Assembly: GCA_019352075.1 (NCBI GenBank)
Contig: JABBOA010000005.1
Location: 1-37,391, forward strand
Length of the DNA stretch: 37,391 nucleotides
Origin: Acidobacteriota bacterium
Lineage (GTDB): Bacteria > Actinomycetota > Acidimicrobiia > Acidimicrobiales > RAAP-2
Direction of reading: 5' to 3'
Numbering within the stretch: position 1 is the stretch's first letter; each line of letters starts with the position of its first letter. The position numbers and the translations under genes were made by a program. Shown piece by piece: positions 9,578 through 36,073 of this stretch. The notes under the pieces were generated by a model, which was not told where the DNA came from, did not search any database, and saw only the letters and a list, made by a program, of their open reading frames with translations.

Positions 9578-10672
9578 ATGACGAAACTCGAGCCCGGTCT
9601 CGCCGAGGGCAGCGCCGCACCCCCTGCGGCACGCCCACTCCCGTTCAACACCGACGCCGCCCTGGCGACGCCGACGAACGTGTCCGACTGGCCCCTCATC
9701 CCGTGGGCCAGGGGGCCCCTGAGTACCGCGGTCATCGACGCACTGCAACGCGGACGTAGCGCCTTCGGCCCCCCGCCATCCCTCGAACACGTCGACGTCC
9801 TCACCGACGACGATTTCCAACTCGCCCTCTACCTCTGCTACGAGACGTCCTACCGGGAGTTCAACGCAACGGACTGGCGACGCGACGCGGGGCTCCAAGA
9901 TTTTCGCACCCAGTTGGAGCGGTTCTTCGAGTCGCGCCTGCGAGTCGAGGTGGAACGCTGGGAGCATGGCTCGGGGGCGTCCCCGCTCCGTCGACTCGAT
10001 GAACTGCTCGACTACTCACGGATGACCCTGCTGGCGAGGTTCGTCAGTGAGTTCGGCACCCTGGAGCACCTGCGTGAGCTATGCGTTCACCAGTCCGTGA
10101 TTCACGTGCACGAGGACGATTCTCGCCCCCTCGTGATGACCCCGTCCTCGGGCGCGGTGCCGGTCACGAGAGCCCACGATAGATTCAGTCGCCGTGAGAA
10201 GGACCGCGACGGTCGTGGCGTCACCGCACAGCTCAGCGACACCATGACGGCCCTCGGACTCGACCCCTCCAGTGGGTCCTACGTCGAAATGGCGCCGGGA
10301 CCCACGCTCGCACTGTTGAACCTGACGTCGATGTTCGCGGACCAGGAGAAGTTCCGCGCCGCCTACCTGGGCCAGCTCGCGGCGGCGGTGAGTTCATCGG
10401 CGGCTTCGCGGGAGCCGATCTCTCGGGCCCTGGGAAAGTTCGGAATCGACGCACTGGGCCGTCGATTCTTCGACAACGTCGCGAGCGTTGACCCTCGCCT
10501 CGCGCGCATCGCCCGCGATCGTGGCGAGAGTGGGTACCTCGAAACCGAACTCGACAGCCTCCTGTTCGGGGCGACCGCGATGCGCGTACTCGAGGGGGGA
10601 TTCGTCACCCACCTTCTCGCGGCGTGGGAGCGCAAGGCGACGTCGCTCGCGCCGTGGGTGATGTCCGACTGA
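9578..10672 (+). CDS. Haem-oxygenase-fold 'iron-containing redox enzyme' family protein, probably degenerate
   Basis: A 364-residue protein. The segments DDDFQLALYLCYETSYREF (about residues 86-104), FVSEFGTLEHLRELCVHQS, DTMTALGLDPSSGSYVEMAP and LALLNLTSMFADQEKFRAAYLGQL line up with the actinobacterial haem-oxygenase-like diiron family. The places where relatives carry metal ligands do not fit. Relatives read roughly KEADPHTW, DEYGGG...H and HVEADAxHE; this one has HEDDSRPL, HDRFSRREKDRDGRG and NVASVDPRLAR. The fold therefore seems kept while the site is lost (see findings). The ATG at 9578 lies after GCGCTC with a GAGGAGG a few bases upstream. It could be a structural paralogue, a scaffold or an early pseudogene. 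Confidence 0.72.
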   Translation: MTKLEPGLAEGSAAPPAARPLPFNTDAALATPTNVSDWPLIPWARGPLSTAVIDALQRGRSAFGPPPSLEHVDVLTDDDFQLALYLCYETSYREFNATDWRRDAGLQDFRTQLERFFESRLRVEVERWEHGSGASPLRRLDELLDYSRMTLLARFVSEFGTLEHLRELCVHQSVIHVHEDDSRPLVMTPSSGAVPVTRAHDRFSRREKDRDGRGVTAQLSDTMTALGLDPSSGSYVEMAPGPTLALLNLTSMFADQEKFRAAYLGQLAAAVSSSAASREPISRALGKFGIDALGRRFFDNVASVDPRLARIARDRGESGYLETELDSLLFGATAMRVLEGGFVTHLLAAWERKATSLAPWVMSD

Positions 10673-27560: not shown

Positions 27561-28443
27561 CACGTGATTCTTCGCGGGCGCTCGGCGCTCGCGCGCCCGA
27601 GGGATCCGCGAACCTCCTTCGCGACGCAGGTCATGTCACCGCCTCTCCGGCTCACGACAAGGAATACCACCTCGCCCACGGCCCCGTGACCGTGAATGTA
27701 CCAGTACTCGCCGTTGAACGCCTCGTCGTCACTACGGTCGAGTGACACTTCTTGGCGACGAACGTTGCGCCCGTCGAGGGCGAGCGCCTCGCCGCGTTCA
27801 CCACCCCCCGGGAACCAAGGGCCAAGAATCTGTGCTCAACCCTCACCAGATGCGAGAGGGCGCTACCGCACCGCCAACGCCCGGGAGGTGAAGCACGACC
27901 GGGCTAGGGGCGGATGGACCACCGCGTGGATCCTCGGGGCGACTCCTCGTTGGACCTGACTCGCCGCCCGTGCGGCGCTTCATCGGCACGGACTGGCTCG
28001 CGTCGGGACCACGGTCTCCGCGACGGCGATGCCTGTGCGCCCATCGGTGGTCCCCACCGTGGAGGCCCGAGCTCGGTGATGGAGACGTCGTTCACTCGTG
28101 AGCACCTTTGAACCCCGGCAACGACCAGCGCACGCTCACCTCCTCGCACCCAGAGCACCGCGGTCGCGGCTCGTCCGACCGCGCCTCTCGTTGCCGGTCG
28201 CCCAGACCCGCCCTAGGGGGCCACCGCGGCGAGTCGACTAACACGATGATGAAAAGAATTCAAGAATCAACCTCGGCCATACCTACATTCCTACATTATC
28301 GTTCCATTTTGTCATCCAACGTTCACGAGTTACTCGGGTAACTTGGGACGATTGGCACGGCCACGCGGTATCAACGAATCAAGAGAATCACACAATGTTC
28401 GACAAACGTCGGACTTTAAAGATCCAGGGGGGAACAAACGCAT
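27561..28443. other. Long intergenic region before the ABC binding-protein gene
   Basis: It separates the P-type ATPase start from the binding protein. It holds the putative GntR operator (listed) and a short palindrome (AGTTAC-TCGG-GTAACT, 28328-28343). The 62-residue minus-strand ORF at 27560-27748 (NGEYWYIHGHGAVGEVVFLV) has a protein-like middle but unnatural ends, so it is not called. The last 200 bases are AT-richer than the surroundings. Confidence 0.4.
28280..28297. promoter_or_regulatory. Putative GntR operator upstream of the binding-protein gene
   Basis: TACCTACATTCCTACATT contains two head-to-tail CCTACATT units (28282-28289 and 28290-28297). It shares TACCTACATT with the gntR-tauE region and TACATTCCTAC with the rhodanese region. 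Regulation by the nearby GntR protein is inferred. Confidence 0.55.
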
Positions 28444-29517
28444 ATGGAGAGAGACACTTCACGTCACGGGGGCAACAAGGGGTGGGCCCACTGGTCACGT
28501 CGCCGGCTCATGGTCACGACGGCCAGCGCCTTCGTCGTCTTGGCGGCGAGCGGGATGTCGGCGGCGGGCGCATCGTCACGTAGCCACCTGACGTCACACG
28601 CGACCAAATTGACCAAGGTGACGGTCACGCTCGCCCTCGATCCGCCCAAAATGATCTTCATGGGATTCTGGGTCGCCCAGCAGGAGGGCTTCTTCGCCCG
28701 CAATGGCCTCGACGTGACGCTCATGCCCGAACAGGGTGGCGTGCAGGCGGCGCGGGCGGTGGCGGCGGGAGACGCGTACTTCGAAGCGGGTGGCACCGAC
28801 GCCATCGCCGCGGCCTACGCCCAAGCCCACAACCTGGAGGCGATCTGGTCCTACGGTGGTGACGACCTCTCCCTCGTGGCTGACAAGAGCATTGCCTCGG
28901 TCGCCGCGCTCAAGGGCAAGACCATGGGCGCGGGGGACGCCACGGGCCCGGCGTTCGAACTCAGCGAGATCGCCCTTCGCAATGCGCACGTCAACACGAA
29001 GGACGTGAAGATTGCGGTGCTCAATGGTCGCCCGGCTCTCGTCGGAGCGATGGCCGCTGGCGCGATTCAGGCGTCGGTCTTTCACGTGGACGATGGCTAC
29101 ACCTTGTTGAGCAAGGACCACAACGTGCACATCATCGCGTCGATGGCCAAGGTCGCGCCGCAGTACTGGTACGGTGCGGTGGGCATCCCCGTCTCCTACG
29201 GCCAGAAGCACCGGAGTACGGTGGTGGCGTTCCTCACGTCGATGATCGAAGCCCAGCGTTGGATGTACACGCACCGGACCCAGACCATCGATCTGTCCGT
29301 CAAGTACACCGGCGAGACCCCCGCAGTGGTCGCCAAGTCCTACGACTACTTGACCGCTAACAAGTTGTGGACCACCGGCGTGGGCATGACGGACAGCCAA
29401 GTCTCCTACACACTCAACCAGTACAAAGACAACGGAATTATCCCCACGGTTCCGAAAGCGACGGACATCTTCAACCAGACCTTCGTGAAGGCGGCGTTGG
29501 CGAAAGTTGGTGGCTAG
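28444..29517 (+). CDS. ABC transporter substrate-binding protein, sulfonate/nitrate/thiamine-precursor type
   Basis: A 357-residue exported protein. The N-terminus SRRRLMVTTASAFVVLAASG resembles a Tat or Sec signal with no lipobox Cys. The mature part has VALDPPKMIFMGFWVAQQEG-type sequence followed by FFARNGLDVTLMPEQGG, then GTDAIAAAYAQ and SVAALKGKTMGAG, characteristic of NMT1/THI5/SsuA-like proteins that bind sulfonates, nitrate or pyrimidines. The permease and ATPase genes lie about 3-5 kb away on the opposite strand. A GGGGGGAACAAACGCAT stretch precedes the ATG. The neighbourhood (TauE, rhodanese, lipoyl protein) makes an organosulfur ligand the most likely guess. A strong terminator follows. 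Confidence 0.88.
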   Translation: MERDTSRHGGNKGWAHWSRRRLMVTTASAFVVLAASGMSAAGASSRSHLTSHATKLTKVTVTLALDPPKMIFMGFWVAQQEGFFARNGLDVTLMPEQGGVQAARAVAAGDAYFEAGGTDAIAAAYAQAHNLEAIWSYGGDDLSLVADKSIASVAALKGKTMGAGDATGPAFELSEIALRNAHVNTKDVKIAVLNGRPALVGAMAAGAIQASVFHVDDGYTLLSKDHNVHIIASMAKVAPQYWYGAVGIPVSYGQKHRSTVVAFLTSMIEAQRWMYTHRTQTIDLSVKYTGETPAVVAKSYDYLTANKLWTTGVGMTDSQVSYTLNQYKDNGIIPTVPKATDIFNQTFVKAALAKVGG

Positions 29518-29546
29518 GAGGGCTCCGAGTCACCACTGGCTCAGAG

Positions 29547-29594
29547 AAGCCCAATGGCTCGCGCGAGACGATCGCGCGAGCCATTGGGCTTTTA
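29547..29594 (+). terminator. Rho-independent terminator after the binding-protein gene
   Basis: A 20-bp perfect stem (AAGCCCAATGGCTCGCGCGA with its complement, 5-nt loop GACGA) is followed by TTTT-rich sequence. It ends the binding-protein transcript and isolates it from the convergent gntR gene. Confidence 0.85.
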
Positions 29595-29690
29595 GCTTTA
29601 GCGCGAATCGAGTTCACCGCCGGCGTGGGGGCCCTCCCTGCGTCGATGGCGACCGGGCCAGGCTCCGTGGGGGCCGGGCGATCCGCCTCG

Positions 29691-30500
29691 TCACAGCGTC
29701 GTGGCGTCAGCGTGCGTCGCCGCTCCCGTCAGTTTGGACAGGTCGAACTGATAACCGGTTCGTGGCGGGAAGTCAGCGATAAGGCTGAAGCTGTCCCCGC
29801 GAATGATCGTGCGACGCCACTCGACGGGTTCGTCGCGCGCGCTGGCCAATCGCTCGATGGCGAGCGCGGCCTGGTCCGATTCGAGATTGAGGAGCCGACG
29901 GTCCTGCTTGGTGGGGACGATCGCGCGAATCCTCTCTCGGCTGACGTCGATGCGAAGGGCGAAGCGGTCGAGGAGTTGGCCATAGAGCGCGGTGTGCGTG
30001 AAATCCACCGAGAGAAACTTCTCGCCGAATCTCCCAGGCATCCACACCCGATCCACCGCGAGCGGCTCTTCGTTGGCGAGCCGCACCCTTTCGAGAAACA
30101 ACAGAGGGGCCCCCGGGTCCTGGCCCAAATGGGCCGCGACCTTCGAGTTCGTCCTCATCTCCTGAGACCGCACCACGCTGCGCTGCTCCATTCCCGCCGC
30201 CTCGACCGACGCAAAAAGGCTGTAGACGGCGCCCAGAGGTTGCTCGATCTCGTGGGCCGAGGCCAAGCGAGGCCGTCGGCCCCGCTCGGCCACGACGACG
30301 CCGTCGCCGCGCAGTCGCCTCATGGCTTCACGAACAGTGTTGCGACTCACGCCATACTCCTTGGCCAGTTCCAACTCGCCCGGGAACGCCCTCTCGAAAT
30401 CGCCCCGGTCCAGGCGACGCGTGAGGTCGGTGTGCAATTGCGCCCACAACGGCAGAGCGCTGTCGCGGTCTAGGGGGGTCTCACCCAATTTACGCTCCAC
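29691..30500 (-). CDS. GntR-family (HutC/UTRA) transcriptional regulator
   Basis: A 269-residue regulator with a GTG start (complement at 30498-30500) and an AAGGTGAGG ribosome site. The winged helix-turn-helix lies at residues about 15-80 (ELAKEYGVSRNTVREAMRRL, RPRLASAHEIEQ), and the effector-binding UTRA domain covers about 90-245 (RVRLANEEPLAVDRVWMP, ALYGQLLDRF). HutC-type proteins repress transport or catabolic operons and are released by a ligand. It diverges from tauE across an intergenic region carrying a palindrome, and the same sequence motif occurs upstream of the binding protein and the rhodanese. Proposed role: local regulator of the whole sulfur cluster, inferred from context. 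Confidence 0.9.
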   Translation of the reverse strand: MERKLGETPLDRDSALPLWAQLHTDLTRRLDRGDFERAFPGELELAKEYGVSRNTVREAMRRLRGDGVVVAERGRRPRLASAHEIEQPLGAVYSLFASVEAAGMEQRSVVRSQEMRTNSKVAAHLGQDPGAPLLFLERVRLANEEPLAVDRVWMPGRFGEKFLSVDFTHTALYGQLLDRFALRIDVSRERIRAIVPTKQDRRLLNLESDQAALAIERLASARDEPVEWRRTIIRGDSFSLIADFPPRTGYQFDLSKLTGAATHADATTL

Positions 30501-30551
30501 CGCCTCACCTTACAAAAGTTCACGACGCGTAACGGTGACCGTATCAAGAGT

Positions 30552-30565
30552 AATGTACCTACATT
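30552..30565. promoter_or_regulatory. Palindromic operator between gntR and tauE
   Basis: AATGTACCTACATT is a 14-bp inverted repeat (AATGTA-CC-TACATT). TACATT may also serve as the -10 hexamer for tauE, with GTGACC-like sequence upstream, so binding would block transcription. Confidence 0.65.
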
Positions 30566-30607
30566 AGAATGTTGTTTGTTTCTAAAGTCCTGTGTAGAGG
30601 GGTGCAA

Positions 30608-30688
30608 ATGTGCGCAAGGGAGCATGACCGCGACGAGGCAGTGCCGTCGTCGCCCCAGTCCGTCGGGTGGCGGGGTGGCGAATGCTGA
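30608..30688 (+). CDS. Leader peptide with cysteine codons overlapping the TauE start
   Basis: A 26-residue ORF, too short for the track, reads MCAREHDRDEAVPSSP...GGEC and stops inside the TauE start (its TGA is two bases after the TauE ATG). GAGGGG lies about five bases before its ATG. Cys is at position 2 and at the last position. Cysteine-codon leader ORFs control sulfur genes by attenuation in mycobacteria; the same mechanism here is inference. Confidence 0.5.
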   Translation: MCAREHDRDEAVPSSPQSVGWRGGEC

Positions 30689-31554
30689 GCAACTGGTTTC
30701 TTTCGATCGTTCTCGGGGCGGCTATTGGTCTCTCCCTGGGCGCGCTCGGCGGCGGCGGATCCATCCTCACGGTGCCGGCCCTGGTCTACGTCCTTAACGT
30801 GAACGCCAAAGTGGCCACGGGGGCGTCCCTGCTGATTGTTGGTTCGAGCGCCCTCTTTGGCACCTTCGCTCATCACCGATTCCGACGGGTCCAGTGGAAG
30901 GTGGGACTGTCCATCGGCGCCATCAGCATCGTCGGCTCCGTCGCCGGCACTCGCCTGAACAAGATGATCGATCCGAATCTGCTGCTCCTGCTCTTTGCGA
31001 TGCTCATGTTCACCGTCGCCATCATGATGGTTGTCCGCAGCCGCAAATCACCTCCGTCCCCGGTGGCGAACACGAGCGCGCAGAACTCGCTGGAATTCGC
31101 TACCGGGGCTCGGACCGGCTCGGATCTCCCCCTCGTTGATCCGTCGCCGCGGGCGGGGGTAGTCGAGGTCCGACCTCGACAGTATCGGCCCGGTCTCGTG
31201 ATTGCGGTGGGCGTGGGCGTGGGATTCCTCACCGGCTTCTTGGGCGTCGGCGGAGGATTCATCGTGGTGCCCAGCCTGATCCTCGCCCTGGGTTTCGAGT
31301 TGCCCGAAGCGGTGGGGACGTCACTGCTGATCATCTTCGTGAGCAGCGCCTTCGCCCTCGCCGAACGAGGCGGGGTGCACGGCATCAGTGACGCGATCGT
31401 CGTCCCTTTCGCGGTCGCGGCCATGCTTTCGGCCGTCGTGGGCAACGCATTGGCCAATCGTCTGCCCATCCGCAAGTTGAACTACGGCTTCATCGCACTG
31501 GTCACGTCCGTCGCGATTTATGTCAGCATTCGGAGCATCCTGGCGCTGACGTGA
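30682..31554 (+). CDS. TauE/SafE-type sulfite/organosulfonate exporter
   Basis: A 290-residue membrane protein with about eight helices in two halves. The repeated TauE motifs GALGGGGSILTVPALVYVL and GFLGVGGGFIVVPSLILALG are clearly present, one per half. Members export sulfite or sulfoacetate, or import other small anions. The preferred start is the ATG at 30682, which overlaps the leader ORF stop; the track's GTG at 30667 is possible. It diverges from gntR. A linker of about 50 polar residues between the halves is longer than usual. Export of sulfite released from a sulfonate would fit the cluster; this is inference. Confidence 0.9.
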   Translation: MLSNWFLSIVLGAAIGLSLGALGGGGSILTVPALVYVLNVNAKVATGASLLIVGSSALFGTFAHHRFRRVQWKVGLSIGAISIVGSVAGTRLNKMIDPNLLLLLFAMLMFTVAIMMVVRSRKSPPSPVANTSAQNSLEFATGARTGSDLPLVDPSPRAGVVEVRPRQYRPGLVIAVGVGVGFLTGFLGVGGGFIVVPSLILALGFELPEAVGTSLLIIFVSSAFALAERGGVHGISDAIVVPFAVAAMLSAVVGNALANRLPIRKLNYGFIALVTSVAIYVSIRSILALT

Positions 31555-31962
31555 GGGATAGGCCGGTCGGGGCCCCGTGTCGCTCTGGCCTAGGACGTCG
31601 ACACTGGCCGAACCGCCGTCGCGTCGATCGCGTTGCCCCGCTCGCCGGGACCACGGAGGTCGCACGTTCCTGCACGATGGCGACACCGCGTCGTCGGCCC
31701 TGCCGAGAGATCACCGGGCGAGACGGCGTCACGGTCAAGAGTGCCGGGGCCGGGGCCGGGGCCGGGGCTCGGACCGACGGAGTCAAGGAGGGTCGTGACC
31801 CGCTGAATCGGCGCCTCGTCACCCCCCGAGGTTGATGTCGCGCCACCCGTCGACGACACTCGTCACGGACACGGCGCCTCCGCGACGCCAGTGACCCGCA
31901 TGACCGTTCGCGACCGACGAAGGCGAGGGGCGTCTTCGTTCCTAGCGAGCGGCGCGCGCCAC
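31555..31962. other. Convergent intergenic region with G4-type repeat
   Basis: It lies between tauE (plus) and the OsmC gene (minus). It contains four GGGG runs separated by CC (31746-31767). No gene was recognised; the overlapping ORFs are Arg-rich shadows. Confidence 0.45.
31746..31767 (+). repeat. Four-GGGG tract, potential G-quadruplex
   Basis: GGGGCCGGGGCCGGGGCCGG-type tract with four G4 runs spaced by two bases on the plus strand. It matches the simple G-quadruplex pattern and could pause polymerases from either convergent gene. Confidence 0.6.
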
Positions 31963-32376
31963 TCATTCACCTATCGGTGCGGGACTCACCAGTCGAATGT
32001 TGACCTCGGGGTCGTTGTGCAGTGTGTTGTGCACCTTGCAGCGCGCACCCACCCGCATCAAGCGCTCCAGGTCCGACTCGGACATGTTGCCCCGGACCTG
32101 AATGGCCACATCGATCTGCGCGACGCGTTCGGGGCTCTTGGCCGTCTCCCCGTTGACGACGATGTCGATCCCCTCGAATCCTTCGATCCCTTGCGTGACG
32201 GCGAAATTCCTCATCGTGCCCGCAGTGCACGCTCCGAGGGCCGCGAGCAGGAGTTCCGCCGAGCGAAAGCCGTCACTCGCGCCACCGTCGCCGGGCAACA
32301 GATCGACGGCCACGACCGCATCGCGGGCACTCACCTCAAAGCGACCAGCCCCGCAATCCTTGACAACTACCTCCAT
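31963..32376 (-). CDS. OsmC/Ohr-family protein
   Basis: A 137-residue protein. It has Cys50 in ELLLAALGACTAGTM and Cys113 in GARCKVHNTLHNDPEV, the two redox cysteines of OsmC/YhfA-type proteins. OsmC and Ohr reduce organic hydroperoxides with a lipoylated partner (lipoyl proteins are the known reductants for Ohr). A lipoyl carrier lies in the same gene group, so functional pairing is plausible. AAAGGAG precedes the ATG. It is downstream of the ABC permease gene on the same strand, about 107 bp away. Confidence 0.88.
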   Translation of the reverse strand: MEVVVKDCGAGRFEVSARDAVVAVDLLPGDGGASDGFRSAELLLAALGACTAGTMRNFAVTQGIEGFEGIDIVVNGETAKSPERVAQIDVAIQVRGNMSESDLERLMRVGARCKVHNTLHNDPEVNIRLVSPAPIGE

Positions 32377-32482
32377 TACTGACTCCTTTCATCCATTTGT
32401 CGCTCGGGACGGCTGAGCGCGTCAGGCGATGCGTGGACAATCGCCACTCCCGTCTCACCCGCTCGCACCGTGTCGTCGGGGT

Positions 32483-33316
32483 TCAACGTTCCGCCCACGG
32501 TGCGATTTTCCTCTTGAGCCACCGCGTGGAACTCATGAGCAACACACCCAGGGCCATCACGACGAAGATGGGCACGAACATTCGCGCGGTTTGAAAAGTA
32601 TCGGCGTTGTTAAGGACCAGACCGCCCAGTCCCGACGCGTTCGTGTAGAACTCCGCGATGATCATTCCCGTCAGGGCGTGACCCAGTGAGATGTTGATAC
32701 CCGCCGCGATGTAGGGAATGCATGAGGGCAGCACGACGTGACGCCACGTCTGGCGATCGGTGGCCCGAAAGGCCTTGGCGACGTCGCGATACATCGGGTC
32801 GACCGAGATGGCGCCCTGGTAGGTGTTGAGCAGCAACGGGAAGAAGGAGAAGCTCCCGATGATCGCCACCTTGGCCATGAACCCGAAACCGAACCACAGG
32901 ACGTACAACGGCACGAGGGCGATCAACGGCGTGGAGAAGATAGCCATCACGAAGGGCTGGATCACCCAGTCGACGACCCGGTATCGCGCCCACACCAGCC
33001 CCAGCGGCACGCTGATCAGCAGCGCCAATCCGAAGCCGGTCACCATGGCTTCGAGACTCAACAGGGTGTCCGTGCCTAACTGCCCATCAGCGATCATGTG
33101 TCCAGCGGCGGCCAGGATGGCCGAGGGCGGCACCAGCAATAGGGGGCTGATGCCCGACGCGTAGATCTGCCACGCGACGAAGAACACCGCCACCGCCGTG
33201 AGCCGCACGGCCCACTTCAACGGCGCCACGTTCTTGGTCCGGCGCAGGCTCGACGGGGCGGTCGGCGACCGTTTCGTCACTTCGACCCGCAATTCCTCAT
33301 CAGCCACCTTCGTCAT
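32483..33316 (-). CDS. ABC transporter permease, SsuC/TauC type
   Basis: A 277-residue permease with about six helices. The EAA loop is present near residues 185-205 (MYRDVAKAFRATDRQTWRHVVLP), in the position contacting the ATPase, and SCIPYIAAGINISLGHAL follows, typical of SsuC/TauC sulfonate permeases. GAAGGAG precedes the ATG. It is about 110 bp downstream of the ATPase gene and, with the binding protein and ATPase, completes one importer. Confidence 0.9.
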   Translation of the reverse strand: MTKVADEELRVEVTKRSPTAPSSLRRTKNVAPLKWAVRLTAVAVFFVAWQIYASGISPLLLVPPSAILAAAGHMIADGQLGTDTLLSLEAMVTGFGLALLISVPLGLVWARYRVVDWVIQPFVMAIFSTPLIALVPLYVLWFGFGFMAKVAIIGSFSFFPLLLNTYQGAISVDPMYRDVAKAFRATDRQTWRHVVLPSCIPYIAAGINISLGHALTGMIIAEFYTNASGLGGLVLNNADTFQTARMFVPIFVVMALGVLLMSSTRWLKRKIAPWAER

Positions 33317-33427
33317 CTTCCGGCTCCTTCACGTGAATTCAACGACTCTCCGCCCACCTTCGACGAGGATGCGCCTCGTGCCCCGAGGTGCAACGAACCC
33401 CCCTCGTTGCCGCACCGGCGATGGGTC

Positions 33428-34258
33428 CTACGCATTGAAGGCATCCACCGTGCTGCTCACGAGGAGTTGTCGTATGTCGTGGTGCAGGTCCGCGAACGCC
33501 GGGAGGATCCGCGCGCTCTCCTCGGTGCGCGGACGGGGAAGATCGATGTCGAAGCGACGAAGGATTCGCCCCGGTCGCGCACCCATCACCACCACTTCGT
33601 CACTCAGGACGATCGCCTCGTCGATGCTGTGCGTGACGAAGAGGACCGACTTTCGCGTGCGCTCCCAGATCTCCAGCAGTTCGTCGTGGAGCTCCTCACG
33701 CGTCTGCGCATCCACGGAAGCGAAGGGTTCGTCCATCAACAAGATGTCGGGGTCGAGCGCGAGAGCTCGGGCGATACCGACCCGCTGTTGCATGCCACCG
33801 GACAACTGATACGGGAACTTCTTCGCGGTGCCCGTGAGGTGCACCATCTCGAGAGTCCGGTCCACCCGCTCGGCGATGGTGCCGCGGTCCACGCCCGCCA
33901 GTTCGAGTCCGAACGCGACGTTGCGACGAACGGACTTCCAGGGAAAGAGACTGCCCTGTTGAAAGACCACCGCCAGCGACGGCCTCACCCCTGGGCTCGA
34001 CGACTTCGCGTCACCCGTGATCAAATCGCCAGAATCCGCTTGTTCGAGACCCGCGATGATTCTGAGCAACGTCGTCTTGCCGCACCCCGACGGTCCGACC
34101 AGAGACGTGAAGGAACCTTTGGTCAAGTCCAAGGACACTCCATCGAGGATCAGCTCGGATCCGAACCGCTTCGTGACTCCCTCGCACGAGATCGCGGGGA
34201 CACCACCGCGTCGTGACGGCTTCGCCGCTCCAGCTTCTGTCGAGACGTCTCCGTCCAT
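33428..34258 (-). CDS. ABC transporter ATPase, SsuB/TauB type
   Basis: A 276-residue ATPase from the chosen ATG (MDGDVSTEAG), preceded by AGGGGGGG; the track's upstream start extends into intergenic sequence. Walker A is GPSGCGKT (about residues 55-62), the signature is LSGGMQQR, and Walker B is ILLMDEPF, followed by the switch histidine (LFVTHSIDEAI). The sequence is closest to SsuB/TauB/NitD ATPases. It powers the adjacent permease at the cytoplasmic face. It heads the permease-OsmC group on the minus strand. Confidence 0.9.
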   Translation of the reverse strand: MDGDVSTEAGAAKPSRRGGVPAISCEGVTKRFGSELILDGVSLDLTKGSFTSLVGPSGCGKTTLLRIIAGLEQADSGDLITGDAKSSSPGVRPSLAVVFQQGSLFPWKSVRRNVAFGLELAGVDRGTIAERVDRTLEMVHLTGTAKKFPYQLSGGMQQRVGIARALALDPDILLMDEPFASVDAQTREELHDELLEIWERTRKSVLFVTHSIDEAIVLSDEVVVMGARPGRILRRFDIDLPRPRTEESARILPAFADLHHDIRQLLVSSTVDAFNA

Positions 34259-34616
34259 AGAATTGCCCCCCCTACGGTCCTGCCCACGCGTCACCAACTC
34301 CCCCACGAAGTTGTTAGCGATAGTTGGAGACGATAACCCATGGGGAGTACGCGCGCGCCATGGCCATTCGTAAATTCTTTTCATTGGTCGCGTCCGCGCA
34401 AGTACGTGCAATTTCAATCGACTTCAACAAGATTGTCCAGGACGGGCACCGTCGCGCGCGACATCGCCGGCGCCGCCACGACGCTCGACGCGACGACGAA
34501 AGAGGATATGTCACCTACCGCGTCACCGCGGACGATCACGCCTCATGAGCACGGCCGCCGGAAGTGAAAATCCCGTGGCACCACTGCGTCGCGCGCGCAG
34601 GCGCACCGCACGTGAG
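34259..34616. other. Intergenic region between the lipoyl-protein gene and the ATPase gene
   Basis: Holds no credible gene. An AT-richer segment (34370-34400) may be a promoter for the ATPase gene. No copy of the GntR-like motif was seen here. Confidence 0.4.
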
Positions 34617-34997
34617 TCACTCAGTGGTCAATTGACGGTACTGCGCGGCGCTCAGGAGCGACGCGAACTCCGTCTCGTCGACGCCCGAGAGGAGGCCGAT
34701 CCATCCCTCGCCGTAGGGGTCGCGGTTGATGAGTTCCGACTGACGCGACAGCAGCGAATTCACCTCGATGAAGATTCCGCCCACCGGGACGTAGAGTTCC
34801 GACACCGACTTGGTCGACTCGATCTCGCCCACTCGCCGATCCTTGACGTAGTGCACGTCCACCGGCGCGAGGTCGACGTAGACGACGTCTCCAAGCGCAT
34901 CCTGCGCAAAGTCCGTGATACCGAATCGGACCCGGTCGCCTTCCCAGCGCGCCCACTCGTGGTTGGAGCTGTAGCGCAGGTCATCCAGCGCGTGCAT
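34617..34997 (-). CDS. Orphan GcvH-like lipoyl carrier protein
   Basis: A 126-residue lipoyl-domain protein. The lipoylation lysine lies in GEIESTKSVSELYVPVGG (Lys63); glycine-cleavage H proteins usually have ES(V/T)KAAS. The flanks NHEWARWEGDRVRFGIT and LGDVVYVDL are typical GcvH. The glycine-cleavage T, P and L genes are absent from the window. In sulfur-oxidising bacteria, related lipoate-binding proteins (LbpA) carry sulfur for the Hdr-like pathway, but LbpA-type assignment would need phylogeny. It is the first minus-strand gene of the group, divergent from the rhodanese across a region with the shared operator motif. The ribosome site is weak. Confidence 0.9.
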   Translation of the reverse strand: MHALDDLRYSSNHEWARWEGDRVRFGITDFAQDALGDVVYVDLAPVDVHYVKDRRVGEIESTKSVSELYVPVGGIFIEVNSLLSRQSELINRDPYGEGWIGLLSGVDETEFASLLSAAQYRQLTTE

Positions 34998-35065
34998 GGC
35001 CCATGGACCCAGGTTCCTTCTCGCCGACGTGGAGACGTCACGGACACTTCGTGAAAATTTGTCAG

Positions 35066-35076
35066 TACATTCCTAC
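35066..35076. promoter_or_regulatory. Putative GntR operator between lipoyl-protein and rhodanese genes
   Basis: TACATTCCTAC is identical to 11 bases of the motif upstream of the binding protein. It lies between two divergent genes, so one operator could control both. Binding is inferred. Confidence 0.5.
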
Positions 35077-35089
35077 CACTGGCCTTGTT

Positions 35090-35200
35090 ATGGTCTGTGG
35101 TGGCAGCACCGTCGTGCACGGGTCGTTCGTCGGATTGCGCGACGTCGGCCGCGAATCCGGCGCGTGCCGTCACGCATCTCCGCAGGGGCGGAGTGACTGA
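35090..35200 (+). CDS. Possible leader ORF before the rhodanese gene
   Basis: A 36-residue ORF begins MVCGGSTVVHGSF, contains two Cys (positions 3 and 26, in GACRHASP) and ends at 35200, within the ribosome-site region of the rhodanese. It lacks a good ribosome site of its own. It may be an attenuator-type leader like the one before tauE, but the evidence is weaker. Confidence 0.3.
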   Translation: MVCGGSTVVHGSFVGLRDVGRESGACRHASPQGRSD

Positions 35201-35215
35201 GGAGGGGATCACAAG

Positions 35216-36073
35216 ATGCTGTTGGTGGAACTTTCAGACGTGTCGAATCTGCCGGCACCCGTTCTCTTCGTCGACGCCCGCATCGAGAAGGACTATCACG
35301 CGGGTCACGTACCCGGCGCTATCCATCACGACTCGTTCGACTACGCCAACGATCTCACCGATGGTGACAATCTCGGCAAGGTCGTCGACGACTGGCACCA
35401 GATGTTCCTCGGCGTCGGCGTCCCCAAAACCGGCTCCGTGGTCTTCTACGACGCGGGGACCGAGAACCGCTCCTCGCGTCCCGCGTTCATGCTTCACTAC
35501 CTGGGCCACGAGAACTCCTACGTCTTGCACGGGGGCATGACCGCCTGGCTCGACGACGGCGGCGAGGTCACCACTGATCCCACCACCTTGCCCGCGACCG
35601 ACTGGGCGGCGCTGGCGCCGTCGCAACGTGAGGACATCATCCTCGGCGTCGACTCGGTGATCGAGAAGTTGGACGATCGTGGCGTCGTAGTGCTCGATGT
35701 CCGCGACGAACCCGAGTTCCTGGGTGTGCGCAAGATGGAGGCGAACCCTCGACTCGGGCGTATTCCTGGTGCCCAGGGCTTCGAGTGGACGCGGTTCCTC
35801 ACTCGTCGGCCCGATTTCCCTCCCGCGGCAGGGTCCTCGCGCAATGACGGCTACGTCTTCGAACACCTGCGTCCCAGTGAAGACGTGCAATCGGAACTCG
35901 CCGAATTGGGCGTGAAGGACCTCGACAGCGAGGTCGTCATCTATTGCCAGAAGAGTCACCGGGCATCACTGGCGTACGTGGCGATGACGCAAATGGGCTA
36001 CACGAACACCCGTGTCTACGTGGGCTCGTTCCGTGAATGGTCCAAGCGTCTGGACCTTCCCATCGAATCGTGA
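35216..36073 (+). CDS. Tandem-domain rhodanese (thiosulfate/3-mercaptopyruvate sulfurtransferase family)
   Basis: A 285-residue protein with two rhodanese domains. The first begins LFVDARIEKDYHAGHVPGAI; at its active-site position it has YDAGTENRSS (no cysteine), as is usual for the inactive first half. The second has VLDVRDEPEFLGV and the catalytic loop YCQKSHRAS with Cys244. The C-terminus continues YVGSFREWSKRLD, as in SseA/CysA2-type enzymes. It moves sulfane sulfur from thiosulfate or a thiol to an acceptor. GAGGAGGGG lies about eight bases before the ATG. It is divergent from the lipoyl protein, a possible sulfur acceptor. Confidence 0.92.
   Translation: MLLVELSDVSNLPAPVLFVDARIEKDYHAGHVPGAIHHDSFDYANDLTDGDNLGKVVDDWHQMFLGVGVPKTGSVVFYDAGTENRSSRPAFMLHYLGHENSYVLHGGMTAWLDDGGEVTTDPTTLPATDWAALAPSQREDIILGVDSVIEKLDDRGVVVLDVRDEPEFLGVRKMEANPRLGRIPGAQGFEWTRFLTRRPDFPPAAGSSRNDGYVFEHLRPSEDVQSELAELGVKDLDSEVVIYCQKSHRASLAYVAMTQMGYTNTRVYVGSFREWSKRLDLPIES

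Follow-up and report, generated by a model that had tools for sequence, protein, structure and literature searches.

A conserved Acidimicrobiales gene cluster linking an ABC importer, an OsmC-rhodanese pair and a glycine-cleavage H-protein paralogue

Gene content and organization of the locus

The gene cluster studied here lies in a stretch of 37,391 nt (the whole of which is called the window) on contig JABBOA010000005.1 of assembly GCA_019352075.1 (Acidimicrobiales, RAAP-2). A preliminary description of this DNA had named eight clustered genes between positions 28444 and 36073, covering an ATP-binding cassette (ABC) importer, an exporter, a regulator, an OsmC-like protein, a GcvH-like lipoyl carrier (here GcvH2) and a tandem rhodanese. 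All eight were found at the positions given, together with several putative regulatory sequences:

28284..28294, plus strand: first copy of the operator-like site TACATTCCTAC, some 150 bp before the binding-protein gene (exact 11-mer also at 35066-35076)
28444..29517, plus strand: ABC substrate-binding protein of the NMT1/SsuA superfamily, with signal peptide (PF09084, 2.9e-14; TIGR01728, 61.7 bits, cut-off 163.5)
29547..29591, no strand assigned: 20-bp inverted repeat without mismatch, resembling a terminator, where the binding-protein and GntR genes converge (sequence and palindrome scan)
29691..30500, minus strand: GntR/UTRA (HutC-type) regulator (PF07702, 6.3e-29; PF00392, 3.6e-11)
30551..30566, no strand assigned: palindrome TAATGTACCTACATTA between the divergent gntR and tauE genes, candidate GntR operator (window scan)
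30667..31554, plus strand: TauE/SafE exporter (PF01925, 9.8e-47)
31963..32376, minus strand: OsmC-fold two-cysteine protein (PF02566, 5.4e-14; alignments; structure model)
32483..33316, minus strand: ABC importer permease (PF00528, 1.5e-30)
33428..34417, minus strand: ABC importer ATPase (PF00005, 1.5e-32)
34617..34997, minus strand: GcvH2, a cysteine-free paralogue of the H protein whose lipoyl lysine is Lys63 (codon 34809-34811; TIGR00527 gcvH)
35066..35076, plus strand: second copy of the operator-like site TACATTCCTAC, in the promoter region from which gcvH2 and rhodanese diverge (exact copy of the 28284 site)
35216..36073, plus strand: sulfurtransferase with two rhodanese domains in tandem, the second with catalytic Cys244 in a CQKSHR loop (PF00581, two stretches, 6.4e-31)

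The gcvH2, ATPase, permease and OsmC genes form a head-to-tail row on the minus strand, from 34997 to 31963. Rhodanese and gcvH2 are a divergent pair, as are gntR and tauE, and the binding-protein gene makes the left end of the cluster. For the ATPase, the ATG at 34258 is a likelier start than 34417.

The draft genome has 2.06 Mb in 165 contigs and is 91% complete. Mis-binning of the contig was considered and rejected, since the 28 kb around the module resemble other contigs of the genome in composition (r 0.97) more closely than do any of 123 other stretches. For the module the value is lower (0.89), and its composition is near that of related genomes.

Three promoters of the cluster carry operator-like sequences, which have no other match in the window. 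The 11-mer TACATTCCTAC occurs twice, a number reached in none of 100 shuffles, while the palindrome TAATGTACCTACATTA has one match where 0.02 are expected when up to 3 mismatches are allowed. The absence of further matches in the window supports a single regulon under the GntR protein of the cluster, for which these would be candidate operators, and the genes are apparently co-regulated as one conserved module. The 20-bp inverted repeat looks like a terminator shared by the binding-protein and gntR genes.

Linkage of OsmC to a tandem rhodanese

The deepest link in the module is that between OsmC and the tandem rhodanese. A class-wide search revealed 12 further genomes with this OsmC subfamily, and in all of them OsmC is followed, after 0-21 bp and on its own strand, by a tandem rhodanese (12 of 12, two of these truncated by a contig end). 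These loci are not all independent, because some come from close relatives (for example L330 and L331). Counting the window and three loci of relatives described below (L146, L147 and L148), OsmC of this subfamily and a rhodanese share one cluster at every one of 16 loci, spread over 7 families. In the control set of 57 other OsmC loci, some of which have short flanks, a rhodanese was found within 1.5 kb at two, on the opposite strand. Literature searches that paired OsmC with a rhodanese, with GcvH or TusA, or with sulfane sulfur returned no title or abstract describing the OsmC-rhodanese linkage.

Active-site residues are kept in both proteins. In OsmC, the only OsmC protein found in its own genome, Glu41, Cys50 and Cys113 do not vary among the 13 members aligned, and the fold, two redox cysteines and the catalytic Glu of an Ohr/OsmC thiol peroxidase are all present. 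Its structure model, of moderate quality (predicted local distance difference test, pLDDT, 72), matches OsmC/Ohr folds, including the Ohr-dihydrolipoamide structures 6ebd and 6ebg. The rhodanese has, by its sequence, the two domains and the second-domain catalytic Cys of an active tandem enzyme of the TST/MST superfamily; this Cys is present in 13 of 13 aligned members, and the closest solved structures are sulfurtransferases.

The surroundings of the pair vary. A threonine-synthase-like pyridoxal phosphate (PLP) enzyme is encoded immediately upstream of it at L324, L325, L326, L328 and L330, and therefore the pair seems to serve several metabolic contexts. An oligopeptide-type ABC importer is close to the pair at L324, L326 and L328, and L324 also has a creatininase-family gene and a D-2-hydroxyacid dehydrogenase gene. 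Besides, an AhpD/YciW-like protein is encoded near L147 (3375-3977, with a CxxC motif), L324, L325 and L303; AhpD proteins, too, are known to connect lipoyl proteins with peroxidases.

Conservation of the cluster in relatives

The most similar arrangement was found at L146, in a genome from another family of the order (G475), where the genes for binding protein, rhodanese, GcvH, ATPase, permease, OsmC, a class II aldolase and GntR follow one another on one strand. Identities to the window proteins are 73% for the permease, 70% for the ATPase, 57% for OsmC, 47% for the rhodanese and 41% for the GntR protein that closes this locus. Common to both is the order GcvH-ATPase-permease-OsmC-x-GntR with the rhodanese beside GcvH, position x being taken by TauE in the window and by the aldolase-family gene at L146. 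Two more loci, L147 (also in G475) and L148 (in G092), combine importer, rhodanese and OsmC without GcvH. The binding proteins at L146-L148 share 46-65% identity with that of the window; the permease is 73-74% identical to those of G475 and 58% to that of G092, and the ATPase 70-71% to those of G475. TauE has no match at L146-L148 and belongs to the window version of the module only.

The gene set is thus a real, conserved module and more than a chance grouping, because the gene run returns at L146 and operator-like sequences are common to three cluster promoters, in line with the clustering that the preliminary description had reported. Its expectation that the neighbourhood be conserved in relatives is borne out by L146, although nearly all sampled genomes of the genus lack the module: when the genus was sampled with the OsmC protein, 25 of 26 other genomes gave no match and one gave a 37% match. 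The module is therefore accessory. A search of the genome contigs with GcvH2 returned mostly housekeeping GcvH in pgsA-gcvH-FHA loci and no second module, and no module was seen in searches of plasmids with OsmC, rhodanese and the binding protein.

L147 and L148 also carry a set of genes for an M24 protein (distantly DddP-like), E1 alpha, E1 beta and a 3-hydroxyacid dehydrogenase. This set stands alone in the genome of the window (contig C52, L293, 1-5100) and in many relatives, and Rhodobacteraceae and Streptomyces plasmids carry it together with lipoyl or E2 genes. Clusters of this type, with a 3-hydroxyacid or short-chain (SDR-type) dehydrogenase and often with SSADH, E2 or lipoyl genes, are widespread (L293, L147, L148, plasmid L210, L211 and L213).

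The importer and its substrate

The importer had been called sulfonate-type, which stands at the level of the superfamily only. All three subunits scored far under the curated cut-offs of the sulfonate/taurine models (binding protein 61.7 against 163.5, permease 83.6 against 347 and ATPase 226.6 against 357 bits), so that organosulfur uptake, as first proposed, is unproven. The structure model of the binding protein (pLDDT 48) was too poor for use, so no ligand was deduced from it. The imported compound is probably small and sulfur-containing. The impression that desulfonating enzymes are missing was borne out, as no such enzyme, SsuD and TauD included, was seen among the window proteins scanned.

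The lipoyl carrier is a GcvH paralogue

GcvH2 exceeds the curated gcvH equivalog cut-offs (TIGR00527, 121.6 against 115.85 bits; NF002270, 134.6 against 117 bits), and its Lys63 sits in the GcvH motif ESTKSVSE. In a careful tree of 43 sequences it falls on the GcvH side (100/100), in a mainly Acidimicrobiia GcvH clade (98/99) and apart from GcvH1, the other H protein of the genome; a larger GcvH tree, whose search had not converged and whose clade tests were uninformative, was dropped. The L146 GcvH also lies among actinobacterial GcvH (98/99), and both it and GcvH2 have longer-than-usual branches. In G475 (85% complete), the module GcvH (L241, C172) is the sole GcvH found. The absence of glycine-cleavage partners, noted earlier, is true of the window and not of the genome, which encodes GcvT, GcvPA and GcvPB on C37 and the housekeeping GcvH1 on C66 (pgsA-gcvH-FHA-merR), so GcvH2 is not its only H protein. 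Dihydrolipoyl dehydrogenase (Lpd), E2, LipB and LipA are encoded together on C15.

The lipoyl carrier adjoins a sulfurtransferase gene, and the preliminary description had accordingly compared it with LbpA, the sulfur-loaded carrier of the sHdr-like sulfur-oxidation pathway. Two cysteines are conserved in published LbpA proteins and missing from GcvH (PMC6067878). GcvH2 has neither, while LbpA-type proteins of the same order have these terminal cysteines, typically near residues 7 and 143, together with an ES(G/A/S)KWVGP motif, and the 12 LbpA in the tree form a separate clade (100/100). As had been stated for the Hdr-like subunits, no sHdr genes were present among the window proteins scanned, and the same scan gave no dedicated lipoylation gene (sLpl, LipS1/S2) beside the carrier; the genome has LipB/LipA instead. 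No sHdr-type gene pair was found in the genome either, at its 91% completeness. The one CCG-domain protein that it encodes, a single polypeptide from C72, has its best matches in TfrB and LdhH-type proteins and is not an sHdr set. A positive control was available at L226 (G092:C31), where the genes around two LbpA-type proteins encode two LplA-type ligases, a pair of radical SAM proteins, EtfBA and DsrE2, likely an sHdr system within Acidimicrobiales. Membership of GcvH2 in the LbpA/sHdr system was rejected on its lack of cysteines, GcvH motif, tree placement and genome content, and we regard it as highly improbable. A GcvH beside a sulfurtransferase should be checked for the cysteines before it is named LbpA. 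LbpA-type lipoyl proteins, mostly in tandem pairs, were seen in many Acidimicrobiales (L226, L227 on G137:C185, and L243-L262).

A possible role for the module

We read GcvH2, tentatively, as an electron donor to a thiol enzyme and not as a component of the known sulfur-oxidation pathway. Lipoylated proteins are the reductant of Ohr in X. fastidiosa (PMC5962072), and, going by the title of Nyvltova 2016 (cited in PMC10332631), OsmC and an incomplete glycine decarboxylase complex reduce peroxides in Trichomonas, so the tie between lipoyl groups and OsmC proteins suggested at the outset has precedent. With these precedents and the Ohr-like OsmC model, the simplest reading is that GcvH2 carries electrons from Lpd to OsmC. 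The strict rhodanese link suggests that OsmC resolves something derived from sulfane sulfur, with a peroxide as the alternative. We therefore favour, tentatively and without calling it probable, an accessory uptake-and-redox module in which GcvH2 passes electrons from Lpd to OsmC, and OsmC resolves a persulfide or a peroxide.

The steps would be as follows. The NMT1-superfamily importer would take in the small molecule, to be degraded by enzymes encoded elsewhere, and the tandem rhodanese would accept sulfane sulfur on Cys244. The Cys50/Cys113 pair of OsmC would resolve the resulting persulfide (or peroxide) and end as a disulfide, which lipoylated GcvH2 would re-reduce, being itself re-reduced by Lpd with NADH. 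GcvH2 may be a duplicated glycine-cleavage H protein, redeployed as an electron carrier and lipoylated by LipB/LipA; TauE may export sulfite or a related anion, and the GntR regulator would control the whole module. In a soil-type actinobacterium, such a module would import a small molecule and handle its sulfur or peroxide by-products.

Several observations weigh against this reading. The window encodes no gene for a sulfur-releasing reaction, and the palindrome TAATGTACCTACATTA is absent from L146. In OsmC, Arg12 is kept in at least 90% of relatives and is no more than a candidate counterpart of the catalytic Arg19 of Ohr. GcvH accompanies only 2 of the 16 OsmC-rhodanese loci; it is therefore not required and could be a passenger, and its functional tie to OsmC depends on two gene neighbourhoods and the precedents. 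Moreover, GcvH2 shares only 44% identity with the L146 GcvH, and the two may not be orthologues; the trees neither join them nor exclude their joining.

That GcvH2 is such a passenger, a duplicated gene caught in a module whose working unit is importer, rhodanese and OsmC, would explain the 14 loci without an adjacent GcvH, but two families place GcvH identically between rhodanese and ATPase, both with the lipoyl lysine, and this explanation seems distinctly unlikely to us. GcvH2 could also be a second glycine-cleavage H protein, or a lipoyl-relay protein, for GcvT-GcvPA-GcvPB, useful if the imported compound yields glycine. Its match to the curated gcvH model, its clade, the presence of the three partners in the genome and the sole GcvH found in the 85% complete G475 all agree with this. 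It is nevertheless unlikely: a housekeeping GcvH already occupies the usual pgsA-gcvH-FHA locus, GcvH2 deviates at four alignment positions (4, 44, 47 and 87 of GcvH2) where at least 90% of housekeeping GcvH agree, its branch is 0.82 against a median of 0.32, and its neighbours are OsmC and rhodanese, with no gcv genes. Quite improbable, finally, is a role as acyl carrier of the 2-oxoacid dehydrogenase E1 pair in the same catabolic route (M24 hydrolase, E1 alpha/beta and 3-hydroxyacid dehydrogenase). The importer-rhodanese-OsmC set is joined to M24-E1 genes at L147 and L148, the genome has its own M24-E1-HIBADH cluster on C52, and plasmid relatives of that cluster include lipoyl or E2 genes; however, the clusters with E1 genes lack GcvH and vice versa, and H proteins are not known to act as E1 acceptors.

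OsmC proteins are usually labelled peroxidases and GcvH a part of glycine cleavage. That OsmC and rhodanese are so strictly linked throughout a bacterial class suggests that one OsmC subfamily handles sulfur. Rhodanese, OsmC, GcvH2 and Lpd make a small testable set in which the lipoyl carrier may power such a role. A more specific proposal, possible but doubtful, is that this subfamily is a dedicated persulfide (sulfane-sulfur) reductase, in which sulfur would pass from the rhodanese onto Cys50, the disulfide with Cys113 would free sulfide, and a repurposed lipoylated H protein would give the electrons. If true, GcvH-type carriers would have a third job in bacteria, next to sHdr sulfur oxidation and to glycine cleavage with its lipoyl relay.

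Outside the cluster, the window encodes a protein with an iron-containing redox (heme-oxygenase-like) domain (9578-10672).

Comparison with known systems

The importer is of the same ABC superfamily as SsuABC/TauABC, with an NMT1/SsuA binding protein, an SsuC-like permease and a TauB-like ATPase, and differs in its low scores to the curated models and in that no SsuD or TauD was seen among the window proteins scanned. With the LbpA-sHdr system of Hyphomicrobium denitrificans and others, the module shares a GcvH-fold lipoyl carrier near sulfur-transfer genes; the difference lies in the cysteine-free carrier, its GcvH motif and phylogeny, and in the sHdr, sLpl and LipS1/S2 genes, none of which were found. 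The Ohr/OsmC protein is reportedly a lipoyl-dependent peroxidase (Cussiol 2010; X. fastidiosa Ohr), and the window OsmC resembles it in its fold, its two-cysteine redox centre and a plausible lipoyl-protein reductant recycled by Lpd, but comes with a tandem rhodanese and an importer, has a dedicated, cluster-encoded H-protein paralogue and is far from classical Ohr in sequence. The Trichomonas vaginalis system, as far as the cited title tells, likewise combines OsmC with a GcvH-type protein that is presumably recycled by the L protein (Lpd), whereas the window has a bacterial cluster with rhodanese, importer and regulator, and a complete GcvTP is encoded elsewhere in its genome.

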